Assembly: GCA_018433865.1 (NCBI GenBank)
Contig: JAHDQJ010000004.1
Coordinates: forward strand, 1-64,000
DNA from: Spirochaetales bacterium
GTDB taxonomy: Bacteria > Spirochaetota > Spirochaetia > Sphaerochaetales > Sphaerochaetaceae
Direction: 5' to 3'
DNA: 64,000 nucleotides
Positions 45,170 to 48,709 of the stretch are shown here, one piece after another; position 1 is the stretch's first letter, and each line of letters opens with the position of its first letter. The notes under the pieces were generated by a model, which worked only from the letters and a program-made list of their open reading frames with translations, did no database searches and was not told where the DNA came from. A program made the translations under genes and the position numbers.

Positions 45170-45208
45170 AACCCCTGGTCAGTCCAAGAACCAGGGGTTC
45201 TTTTTTTC
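45170..45208 (+). terminator. Intrinsic terminator after the zinc-finger gene
   Basis: AACCCCTGGT and ACCAGGGGTT form a 10-bp stem followed by CTTTTTTT. The stem overlaps the stop codon of the convergent MBL gene. Confidence 0.88.
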
Positions 45209-45835
45209 CCTGCCGATGGTCGTTGACGATCCGTGACCCGGATACACTACGGTCGTGTCACGCAGTGGAAACAGTCTTTCCCTGATCGACGGGATGATCG
45301 CCCTTGGGTCGCTGTAGGGCAGGTCGGTCCTGCCTATGGTCCCGGCGAACAGCGTATCTCCCGAGAACAGCAGCTCTTGTGTCTCTTGGTAGAGGCAAAT
45401 CGAGCCCGGCGTATGACCGGGGGTGTGGATGACGATGAGGTTGCACCCTTCGATCCGGTCTCCGTCAGCGAGTACCTGTGTAGGCTCCGGCACGTCTTCC
45501 CAAAGGGACCGAGGAATCACCCGCTGGTCGGGATCGACCGTCATGGCGAACCGGCGTGAGCTATCGACTCCCTCTTTTCCAAGAAGGAACGCATCCGCAG
45601 CATGCACATGAATCGGAAGGTCGTCGAAAGCATCGCACAAACCCGGGAGGCCCAGCACGTGATCCCAATGGGAGTGGGTAAGGATCACCGCCTGGACTTC
45701 CAGATCATGACTCGTGATATGTGCTGCAAGTGCATCACCGTCGAACCCCGGATCCACGATCCATACCTTCCTGCCGTCGATCAGCAGGTGGCAGTTCGTC
45801 CGGTATGGCCCGAGACGGAATGTCTGCACCTCCAC
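45179..45835 (-). CDS. Metallo-beta-lactamase-fold hydrolase (glyoxalase II-like)
   Basis: A 218-residue hydrolase with the MBL zinc motif THSHWDH, then HTPGHTPGS and SGDTLFAG carrying further ligands, and PGHG near the end. It is similar to glyoxalase II, persulphide dioxygenase or related thioesterases; the exact substrate is unknown. It starts with GTG, three nt after the stop of the upstream gene, and the Shine-Dalgarno AAGGAG overlaps that stop codon. It is therefore cotranscribed with the degenerate DEAD-box gene. Confidence 0.9.
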   Translation of the reverse strand: MEVQTFRLGPYRTNCHLLIDGRKVWIVDPGFDGDALAAHITSHDLEVQAVILTHSHWDHVLGLPGLCDAFDDLPIHVHAADAFLLGKEGVDSSRRFAMTVDPDQRVIPRSLWEDVPEPTQVLADGDRIEGCNLIVIHTPGHTPGSICLYQETQELLFSGDTLFAGTIGRTDLPYSDPRAIIPSIRERLFPLRDTTVVYPGHGSSTTIGREKKNPWFLD

Positions 45836-45838
45836 GGC

Positions 45839-47437
45839 TTACTCCTTGTTCGAGTAGCTGACCGACGCGATGCGTCCCCTGATATCCATGCCGTTCAGTT
45901 TCTCGATGGCCTTCTCAGCATGTTCCTGGTTCAAGGTGATGAAGGAGTATTTGTCGTGGACACGGATCGAATAGATATCTTCCTTTGTGATTCCCAGTTG
46001 ATCCTGGACGATCTGGGCGAGTTCCTTCGCATAGAGCCGTCGCATCTTTCCGATGTTCAGGTACAGGGTCCTGGCTCCTTCGGGGATGTTCTGCTCCTCT
46101 TGTTCCCGTGCCTCTTGGGTCCGCTCGAGGGGAGCTTTCTTGGCCCGTTGCGGTTTCTCCTTCACCGTCTCTGCCGCTGCTTGCGGTTTCGCCGGGCTTG
46201 GCTGGGCCTTCGGCTTGCTTGCGACTTTCTTCTCACCGGAGGCGAGCAGCTCACGCAGCAAGTACGCAGCGAAATAGCCGCGACGGTGGAACGGTACGTT
46301 CTTCTTGATGGTCTTCTTCAGGGTCTCGAGTTCTTCGGGATTCGAGTCGATGTTCAGTTTTGCGACAAGCATCTGGATCTTGCCGGCAAGGACCTCGCCG
46401 GTCTCCGGTACAGGTTTGTTTTCGTTGTTCATGAGCAGGGTCTCCTTGGATGTGGTGATTTCTTGAGCCTCATCAGGCCCAACGATCGCGACTATCTGCT
46501 GGAACGGGAAATTTCCCTCATTGAGATGTCGGATCATGGAAAGCAGTTCCCCGCTGTTCAGATCGATTGCAACCACGGTATCGACGGCAACGGTCTGCGG
46601 GACCTTCAACTCGGACAACCGATCGAAACCGATTCCGATGGCCCCGATGGGGGGAACTGTTGCACGCAATTGCTTTTCCAAAGCAGTCCAAGACTTGCTT
46701 GTCTTGTGAATCACAAGATACTGTTGCCCCTGCAAGGCATACAGGATATCGAGGCAGCTTGAACGCGCGTGCGGTGGCGTACTGATGACTTTGAGGGGAT
46801 GGACAGGCCGCTCCCATTCGGCTTGCGTCAACACCAGAGGGTCGGTCACCAGTTCGTTCGGGGTTCTCGCGAGATGGGAAAGTGTTCCTGTGTACAGCTC
46901 GATGCGTACCGAAGGGTTCAGTTTCGTGAAAATGAACTGGCAGTCATCGAGGAACGCACAGGCCCTAACCTCCATCTGCTCGTCAGTCTCTTCTTCGAGC
47001 CGGAGAAAATCATAGGCAAGGACGACTGCTTTCGTGGAAGAGAGAAAGATATTGTCCCTGCGGATGTGATCGATGGCTCGCTGCGGTGTGGTCGCCAGGA
47101 CCCGAGACTTGCCGTTGAGAACCGATAGGTCTGCCCGGGGTGATTGCGTCTCGGACAGACAGGTGAAGGCATCGCAGATATCCTTGTCAGCCCGTTCGAG
47201 CTGGCTCTCCATCTGCTCCTGTGAGATCAGCAGGAGGACCGAAGGTTCGCTTGCAACCGGTCTGTTGGTTTCCTTTCCCCGATGTTTCTGGGATTTCACC
47301 AAATCGATGCAGCGTGACAATGCAATGGGCACGACATGCTGTCCGACCTCAATGAATATCGGTTGGTGTGTCGTTCCCTTTGTCTTCAGCTCGTCCAATG
47401 CATTTTGAAGCAGGGAGGGGATTCCTTGTGAAGTCAT
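45839..47437 (-). CDS. Degenerate DEAD-box protein with DbpA-type RNA-binding tail
   Basis: A 532-residue protein. The last ~75 residues look like the DbpA/CsdA RRM-like domain (TLYLNIGKMRRLYAKELAQI, then IYSIRVHDKYSFI, then IRGRIASV). The first 350 residues follow the helicase layout, yet the motifs are lost: motif I GxGKT reads IFIEVGQHVVPIAL, motif Ib is TTPQRAIDHIRR, motif II DEAD reads VVLAYDFLRL, SAT reads TGT, and the arginine-rich motif VI is missing. A lysine/alanine/proline linker joins the parts. I infer a catalytically dead RNA-binding protein, perhaps of the ribosome. Start: ATG with GGAGGTGG upstream. Confidence 0.78.
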   Translation of the reverse strand: MTSQGIPSLLQNALDELKTKGTTHQPIFIEVGQHVVPIALSRCIDLVKSQKHRGKETNRPVASEPSVLLLISQEQMESQLERADKDICDAFTCLSETQSPRADLSVLNGKSRVLATTPQRAIDHIRRDNIFLSSTKAVVLAYDFLRLEEETDEQMEVRACAFLDDCQFIFTKLNPSVRIELYTGTLSHLARTPNELVTDPLVLTQAEWERPVHPLKVISTPPHARSSCLDILYALQGQQYLVIHKTSKSWTALEKQLRATVPPIGAIGIGFDRLSELKVPQTVAVDTVVAIDLNSGELLSMIRHLNEGNFPFQQIVAIVGPDEAQEITTSKETLLMNNENKPVPETGEVLAGKIQMLVAKLNIDSNPEELETLKKTIKKNVPFHRRGYFAAYLLRELLASGEKKVASKPKAQPSPAKPQAAAETVKEKPQRAKKAPLERTQEAREQEEQNIPEGARTLYLNIGKMRRLYAKELAQIVQDQLGITKEDIYSIRVHDKYSFITLNQEHAEKAIEKLNGMDIRGRIASVSYSNKE

Positions 47438-47513
47438 TCCACCTCCACGGAGATTTCGTTCATGCGATGCTCTTTTCCATCATCTGAGGTCAGAATAGCC
47501 AGTGGTGCTTGCT

Positions 47514-47542
47514 TTGTCAAGGAACTGCCGATATGGTAATAT
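47514..47542 (+). promoter_or_regulatory. Promoter of the coiled-coil gene
   Basis: TTGTCA, 17 nt, TAATAT; about 28 nt before the ATG at 47570. Confidence 0.65.
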
Positions 47543-47569
47543 GTGACCATCCGGGATCAAGGAGCGTGC

Positions 47570-48709
47570 ATGGGTCGGCAACGAAGCCAAATCGAAGTAG
47601 TGGAACGACAGATCGCGGTGGTCGATCATGACATGGAAGTGCTGTTGGCTGAGCTTGGCATGCATGTCCTCTCGCTCAGGCAACCTGTCGTGGGAGGAGA
47701 CCTTTCGGACGCCTACCAGGCCTTGGCCAAGGAAAAATTGTTGCTGGACAACCTGACTGCACGGATTTCCCACCTGCAGCAGTTGGGAAGAAGCCTCCAG
47801 GACGCCAACTCACACATCAATACGCTCAAGCAGCGCATCGCCTCCCATGAACAGGATCTCAGGATCGTCCATGGACGGATCGGCGTGATAGCATGGGAGG
47901 AAGCCTCCTCCGAGGTTCTCTCCGAGGAGATCGCAGGTCTCTTGCCGATGATCGGGCAAAGGAAGGAAAAGGTGGCCTCCTTGAAGGCACGGCAGGAGCA
48001 AGTGATCTCCAGGTCCGACGGAAGCGGTACGCTTTTGCGGCTACCCATGAAGCTCCGTGCGTTCCTGGTCTCCCGAAGATTGGAGAAATATGCGCGGGGA
48101 CACGAGGAATTCTTCATCGAGACGGGGAAGGCGATCGCGGATGCTTCGGCTATCCGTCATCTTGCGAGCAACTCGGCAGTGGCGCTCGATGAGGAATATC
48201 ACGCGATCGCCGACCGGATTGCTGCGTGGAGGGAGGAAATGTCCCTCATGCACAGCAGGATCACGAGGGACAAGAGCAAGCTTGAGGAGGTCGGAGTCGC
48301 CGGTTCGGTCGAGCGGAAGATCCAGGAGCTTGAACAGACCCACAGGGATAAGGTCAGGGATGTGTCGCAATCGGCAGTTGCCTACGCGAAAAGAATCTGT
48401 GCGCTTGAGAATCCTTGGAAATCGGTGGAAGTGAATGCCGAGACTTTGCGTTGCTATGACCAGATACGGCGACATGAGAGGATCAGGAAGCAACTGGAAA
48501 AGAGAATCGGTGAATTGCACATCGAGAGCAACATCGGTGAGTTGGTCTTCCTGATCGAACAGGATGAGGAGCGCATCCGGCACATCCGCCAGATGATCGA
48601 GCAGCATAATCGGCAGATCGAGGACATCCAGCGCTCCATCGGATCGAACAGGGAAAAGATCGGCGAGTACAAGCGGTCACTCGCCTCGAGTCTCGAGCGG
48701 GAGGACTGA
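47570..48709 (+). CDS. Long coiled-coil protein of unknown function
   Basis: A 379-residue protein, nearly all predicted coiled-coil with heptad-like leucine, isoleucine and charged residues throughout. A short globular-looking break occurs around residues 150-180 (SRSDGSGTLLRLPMKLRAFLVS). There is no signal peptide and no family that I recognise. It may be a scaffold or a regulator of envelope synthesis, since it precedes mltG by five nt. Start: ATG with AAGGAG five nt upstream. Its codon use matches neighbours, so it is a real gene. Confidence 0.75.
   Translation: MGRQRSQIEVVERQIAVVDHDMEVLLAELGMHVLSLRQPVVGGDLSDAYQALAKEKLLLDNLTARISHLQQLGRSLQDANSHINTLKQRIASHEQDLRIVHGRIGVIAWEEASSEVLSEEIAGLLPMIGQRKEKVASLKARQEQVISRSDGSGTLLRLPMKLRAFLVSRRLEKYARGHEEFFIETGKAIADASAIRHLASNSAVALDEEYHAIADRIAAWREEMSLMHSRITRDKSKLEEVGVAGSVERKIQELEQTHRDKVRDVSQSAVAYAKRICALENPWKSVEVNAETLRCYDQIRRHERIRKQLEKRIGELHIESNIGELVFLIEQDEERIRHIRQMIEQHNRQIEDIQRSIGSNREKIGEYKRSLASSLERED

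Follow-up and report, generated by a model that had tools for sequence, protein, structure and literature searches.

A spirochaete gene for a DEAD-box-derived pseudo-helicase with a conserved internal start and a putative nested RRM protein

Within a 64,000-nucleotide stretch of spirochaete DNA (the window), we describe a gene that we interpret, with a probability of about 0.78, as encoding two products: a catalytically dead long protein with the order RecA1, RecA2, dimerization domain, and RRM, and an internally started protein consisting of the dimerization domain and RRM. At the level of sequence, this interpretation draws on the loss of the helicase motifs, the order of the domains, the conservation of the internal start, the use of the same site as the sole start in orthologues that consist only of the C-terminal part (hereafter the tail), and the repeated loss of the RecA-like part (the core). 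An earlier sequence-only reading of the window had recognized the pseudo-helicase and its RRM and had overlooked the conserved internal start, the class-wide spread, and the repeated reduction to tail-only genes.

We also lean, with less assurance, toward a broader scenario of a class-wide RNA-binding system of spirochaetes that would descend from an ancient gene for a DEAD-box helicase, now a pseudo-enzyme with a dimeric RRM protein nested in it. Translation from the internal start would have made the tail independent of the helicase, and individual lineages would have dropped the helicase part and retained the tail as an RNA chaperone or ribosome factor in its own right, amounting to gene birth by internal start. 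A pseudo-helicase family would then occur almost throughout a bacterial class to which Treponema belongs, and one could follow how an enzyme gave way to a stand-alone RNA-binding protein, with the internal start in place before several independent losses of the enzyme part. For annotation, a single 'DEAD-box/DbpA' label hides a likely second product, and a widespread, uncharacterised family of spirochaete RNA-binding proteins is marked for experiments.

Domain architecture and loss of helicase motifs

The long ORF has the coordinates and strand assigned to it in the sequence-only reading, and its 532 codons run without interruption (Table 1). Besides weak DEAD and CshA-fragment matches, its C-terminus is the only part recognized by profile libraries: the Pfam DbpA RRM matches residues 456-523 (E 2e-16), an NCBIfam CshA fragment covers residues 102-187 (E 1e-5), and the match to the DEAD profile is no better than E 0.041. 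The protein is absent from a genome-wide DEAD domain search (E<=0.001), in which 16 places were listed.

Table 1. Features of the pseudo-helicase gene and its surroundings, in window coordinates
Feature	Position	Strand	Basis
Pseudo-helicase long ORF, 532 aa	45839..47437	-	Uninterrupted reading frame
RecA1-like domain, residues 1-205, catalytic motifs lost	46823..47437	-	Model and structure alignment (Z about 14, rmsd 3.4-3.7, ~175 residues)
Retained motif Ib region, TPQRAIDHIRRDNI, residues 117-130	47048..47089	-	11-gene alignment and motif comparison
RecA2-like domain, residues 211-335, motifs IV-VI unrecognisable	46433..46807	-	Model and structure alignment
Internal Shine-Dalgarno AAGGAGA, coding K331-E332-(T333)	46441..46447	-	Codon conservation, blind scan, starts of tail-only genes
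Internal start codon ATG (M336)	46430..46432	-	Codon conservation, blind scan, weak RNA structure
Nested in-frame short gene, 197-aa dimerization and RRM protein (predicted)	45839..46432	-	Homology to stand-alone tail-only genes
Three-helix domain, residues 346-399, counterpart of the Hera/CshA dimerization domain	46241..46402	-	Model and structure alignment
Low-confidence linker, residues 402-449	46091..46234	-	Model
DbpA-type RRM, residues 455-528	45854..46075	-	Pfam, model, profile alignment, Foldseek
Promoter-like TTGACA-17-TATTCT, 5' of the long ORF	47492..47520	-	Consensus match only
MBL-fold hydrolase gene, 3 bp past the pseudo-helicase stop	45179..45835	-	Neighbour of full-length and tail-only orthologues

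The predicted structure of the long ORF (mean pLDDT of 82, with 29 aligned sequences as input) consists of alpha/beta domains at about residues 27-203 and 215-319, three helices at 346-399, a weak linker, and an RRM at 455-528, and its top Foldseek matches are DbpA (E 3e-15), CshA, and Hera. With two alpha/beta RecA-like domains in the model and these matches, the helicase fold can be followed as had been claimed, and the C-terminal RRM-like domain appears as intact as it was said to be, both in the Pfam match and in the modelled RRM. In VIA-align, residues 1-205 align with many RecA1 domains (scores in Table 1). The Hera fragment 3ear, comprising RecA2 and the dimerization domain, aligns with model residues 211-398 (Z 14.1, 3.6 A over 175 residues), and CshA 5ivl covers residues 1-398 with its RecA domains in a different relative position (rmsd 16.8). 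Residues 346-398 are covered by Hera 3ear, Hera 3i32, and CshA 5ivl alike. This match of the helical domain to the Hera dimerization domain is obtained only when the model is compared as a whole; for the short-isoform model, RRMs filled the match list, and the best Foldseek match was DbpA. Because the fold comparison gives the order RecA1, RecA2, dimerization domain, and RRM, the modelled architecture is that of Hera and CshA rather than that of DbpA, and the earlier description of the protein as a DbpA derivative is not supported. DbpA is not known to have a dimerization domain.

As a reference for the motifs, we used L001, an intact DeaD encoded elsewhere in this genome (AQTGTGKT, PTRELA, TPGR, DEAD, SAT, HRVGRTGR). 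This DeaD-like protein of 666 aa, with P-loop, DEAD, SAT, and motif VI intact, is the only other DbpA-RRM protein of the genome. Two of its orthologues, from two genomes of the same genus (L234, L235), carry one in-frame TGA in the aligned range, with the helicase part open. In the alignment of the pseudo-helicase with L001, VGQHVVPI takes the place of the Walker A motif AQTGTGKT, ISQEQM that of PTRELA, LAYDFL that of LDEADE at the DEAD position, and YTGTL that of FSATMP at the SAT position, and no stretch resembles motif VI. The Q motif, Walker A, DEAD, SAT, and motif VI are all gone, and the losses are common to 11 full-length genes from six genera of the Sphaerochaetaceae. Motif Ib is kept, with TPQR for the TPGR of L001 and IDHIRR alongside; no other part of the core is as well conserved as this stretch, in which T117, R120, I122, D123, H124, R126, R127, N129, and I130 are invariant in the 11 genes. 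The assertion that all catalytic motifs had been lost thus stands for Walker A, DEAD, SAT, and motif VI and fails for motif Ib. Judged by its sequence, the long ORF would encode a catalytically dead derivative of a DEAD-box protein, one that has lost both its ATPase and its helicase motifs.

When the 51 core-bearing members of the family are tabulated, Walker A GK[TS] is kept in 10, DExD in one (L224), SAT in one (L106), and motif VI in none. Walker A, DExD, and SAT occur together in 0/51, so an intact family member was not found; the nearest to intact are L222 (GKT and DEDE, without SAT) and L224 (DEPD, without Walker A). Since the model has two RecA-like folds and the close orthologues share the losses, with no intact motif set among them, neither of the results that could have overturned the pseudo-helicase proposal was obtained from the structure prediction or the orthologue search. 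Either loss of the ATPase was an early event, the P-loop being the last motif to decay, or it happened many times. In the small genomes of family f10, we observe a RecA1-only gene (L109) with a complete P-loop, AGKNTGKT, and without DEAD, possibly a nucleotide-binding intermediate.

An internal start site and a nested short gene

Tail-only genes of Sphaerochaeta start with AAGGAGA..CTCATG, and the identical string lies inside the long gene, where it codes for KETLLM (46447-46430). In a codon alignment of the 11 long genes, 149 degenerate columns are conserved at the amino acid level, of which three are codon-invariant, all within the internal start site: K331 (AAG, 11/11), E332 (GAG, 11/11), and L335 (CTC, 10/10). 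The background frequencies in this alignment are 44% for AAG among Lys codons and 36% for GAG among Glu codons, and the best codon-conservation window of the whole gene begins at residue 331.

As some outgroup junctions had first been recognized by their Shine-Dalgarno sequence (SD), we added a blind scan of 26 genes, looking 10-45 codons before the dimerization helix for ATG or GTG preceded by an SD of 5 nt or longer. The scan was positive in 23/26 genes, where 1.3 would be expected from the same genes, and the distance to the second dimerization helix is constant at 26-31 codons. By inspection, 20 of 23 further core-bearing genes from other families also have the internal start (those without it being L216, L222, and L228). 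The internal start is thus at its fixed place in 43/49 core-bearing genes, with none scored in the other six (L042, L109, L110, L216, L222, L228). Over 44 genes, the start codon is ATG in 39 and GTG in 5, and the residues encoded by the SD are KE, QE, EE, EG, KG, or HEGR, such that the nucleotides are kept and the residues vary. This spelling of the SD through different residues argues for selection on the RNA at this site. Predicted RNA structure around the internal start is weaker than the gene average in 18/18 genes. The intact DeaD orthologues have no fixed internal site, and 6/22 have scattered sites when a wider interval is allowed. At the level of its conserved sequence, the long gene has the hallmark of a gene within a gene, a conserved SD with a start codon that lies in frame within the parent ORF.

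The AAGGAG sits exactly at the boundary between RecA2 and the dimerization domain, where it might serve as a translational pause that aids folding at the domain border, with no start and only the long pseudo-helicase being made. We consider this highly improbable: a start codon is unnecessary for pausing, yet ATG or GTG is present at fixed spacing throughout the 44 genes, the same site is the sole start of the tail-only orthologues, and the local RNA is weakly structured, as it is at starts.

In the two-product reading that we prefer, the internal SD and ATG336 would drive separate translation of the 197-aa protein. On the minus strand between 45100 and 47700, the ORF included, the only promoter-like site is the one preceding the long ORF, which suggests that both products are translated from one mRNA. 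A promoter of the short form's own was rejected as a candidate, though not thereby excluded, with no promoter-like site inside the ORF on this strand. Long and short products would form homo- and heterodimers via the Hera-like domain, and their ratio would set the amount of dead core on RNA. The short product would be the universal working part, an RNA-binding protein of the chaperone or ribosome-assembly type, and the dead core an optional passive extension that touches RNA via the retained motif Ib or docks a partner.

Distribution across the Spirochaetia and the fate of the core

The tail is present in all 75 good genomes and all 22 genera of the Sphaerochaetaceae, a family that constitutes its whole order in the genome collection used. 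Six genera (g1, g2, g6, g16, g20, g21) have full-length pseudo-helicases, and the remaining genera have tail-only genes or genes with one degenerate RecA domain. Full-length and tail-only genes of this family represent one locus, since both adjoin the MBL-fold hydrolase gene, and a functional link between the hydrolase and the pseudo-helicase is possible. Also near the gene, at 47543-48709 (+), is the gene for a coiled-coil-like protein, divergently transcribed and fast-evolving, with about 22-74% identity at the same locus in relatives.

Across the class Spirochaetia, the tail is found in 204/247 good genomes and 102/113 genera; it was not found in family f17, whose genomes are 0.9-1.8 Mb. 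As the universal part, the tail must have a function of its own. Other classes of Spirochaetota (G376, G395, G399, G441, and others) have proteins of 160-190 aa that match only the RRM part of the tail and, from this resemblance, may be further tail-only relatives.

For gene architecture, 30 further genomes from other families were read. A tree of 111 tails, rooted at its midpoint rather than by an outgroup, requires nine changes between core-bearing and tail-only genes, seven of them forced by well-supported branches. We read these changes as losses because independent gain of the same dead core in the same place is implausible; the dead core would thus have been lost several times in the Spirochaetia with the tail kept. 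An apparent core remnant upstream of tail-only Sphaerochaeta genes (L134, L068) was discarded, as the tblastn extension proved spurious once translated.

Repeated loss of the core, together with its faster divergence than the tail and the earlier loss of RecA2 in many lineages, could also mean that the core is a decaying pseudogene part carried by an essential tail and that the long product is functionless. We find this unlikely, given that all core-bearing genes read have open frames, that neither motif Ib nor W208 varies among the 11 genes, and that the core persists in distant families. Furthermore, dN/dS between L010 and L011 is 0.15 for RecA1, 0.32 for RecA2, and 0.06 for the tail, values that indicate purifying selection on the core, weaker than that on the tail.

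The tail-only genera also bear on whether the short protein antagonises the long one through mixed dimers, as RpnS does with RpnL. The gene layout is the same as in Rpn, with a separately translated C-terminal oligomerization part (PMC10327210). Such antagonism is nevertheless very unlikely to be the role of the short protein, which must have one of its own because tail-only genes persist in whole genera without a long form, and the long form has no recognisable activity to inhibit.

RNA recognition and relation to known systems

It had been proposed that the protein is a pseudo-DbpA that still binds 23S rRNA at hairpin 92 and serves as a ribosome factor or as a competitor of true DbpA. The RRM is indeed of the DbpA type, and its profile matches the YxiN RBD (E 3e-8). 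In YxiN, the positions in contact with RNA include K427, I436, G437, and I439 (PMC3695512); in the profile alignment, I436 and I439 remain Ile, K427 becomes Asp, and G437 becomes Tyr, such that 2/4 are kept and recognition of hairpin 92 does not find support. Because the Gua2 contacts are main-chain, these changes weaken, without excluding, a YxiN-like pocket. Hera, whose domains come in the same order, recognises GGGPyr instead of the loop (PMC3695512), and a search of the genome for DbpA-RRM proteins did not find DbpA proper. On the side of the proposal, TPANIC_1029 of Treponema pallidum is annotated as a DbpA RNA-binding domain protein for rRNA processing and is among the 50 most transcribed genes (PMC8525777); our tail-only match G204:C1:1124846-1125403, whose position fits, is very probably this gene. 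On balance, we regard a pseudo-DbpA directed to hairpin 92 as improbable and continue to favour the two-product reading. Close kinship of the RRM with the plastid ribosomal protein cS22, its best sequence match, was dropped, as the match is to the general RRM.

Eukaryotic pseudohelicases, genes within genes, and internal starts are already known, the last being common in Ribo-RET data (PMC9094748). A bacterial DEAD-box pseudo-helicase was not found in the literature searched, most subscription papers being outside its reach. Neither was the combination of a dead helicase with a nested start, its class-wide conservation, or the reduction series.

The closest counterparts in architecture are the dimeric helicases Hera (Thermus), CshA, and CsdA/DeaD, which share the order RecA1, RecA2, dimerization domain, and RRM-like domain. 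Unlike them, the pseudo-helicase lacks the ATPase and unwinding motifs, has an internal start that would release the tail, and has a core that is evolutionarily dispensable. DbpA and YxiN share the RRM family, and DbpA is the best Foldseek match of both the long and the short models, but DbpA is an active helicase, and two of the four YxiN RNA contacts are changed here. TPANIC_1029 resembles our protein in its DbpA RNA-binding domain annotation and differs in being tail-only (PMC8525777). Utp25/Def, a pseudohelicase of the yeast SSU processome with dispensable motifs, is likewise RNA-related and has a DEAD-box fold; it is eukaryotic, and the part of the source available to us mentions neither a DbpA RRM nor a nested start (PMC9539457). 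We assume that Utp25/Def and the spirochaete pseudo-helicase are of independent origin. Finally, genes within genes that make a C-terminal part separately from an internal in-frame start are known from Rpn (PMC10327210) and Cas8b/Cas11b (PMC11899642), and the C-terminal part of Rpn is an oligomerization domain (PMC10327210), as is predicted for the short form here. In contrast to these systems, the nested part in spirochaetes lies within a dead helicase and is also encoded by itself in many genomes, and the remainder of the parent gene has been lost repeatedly.
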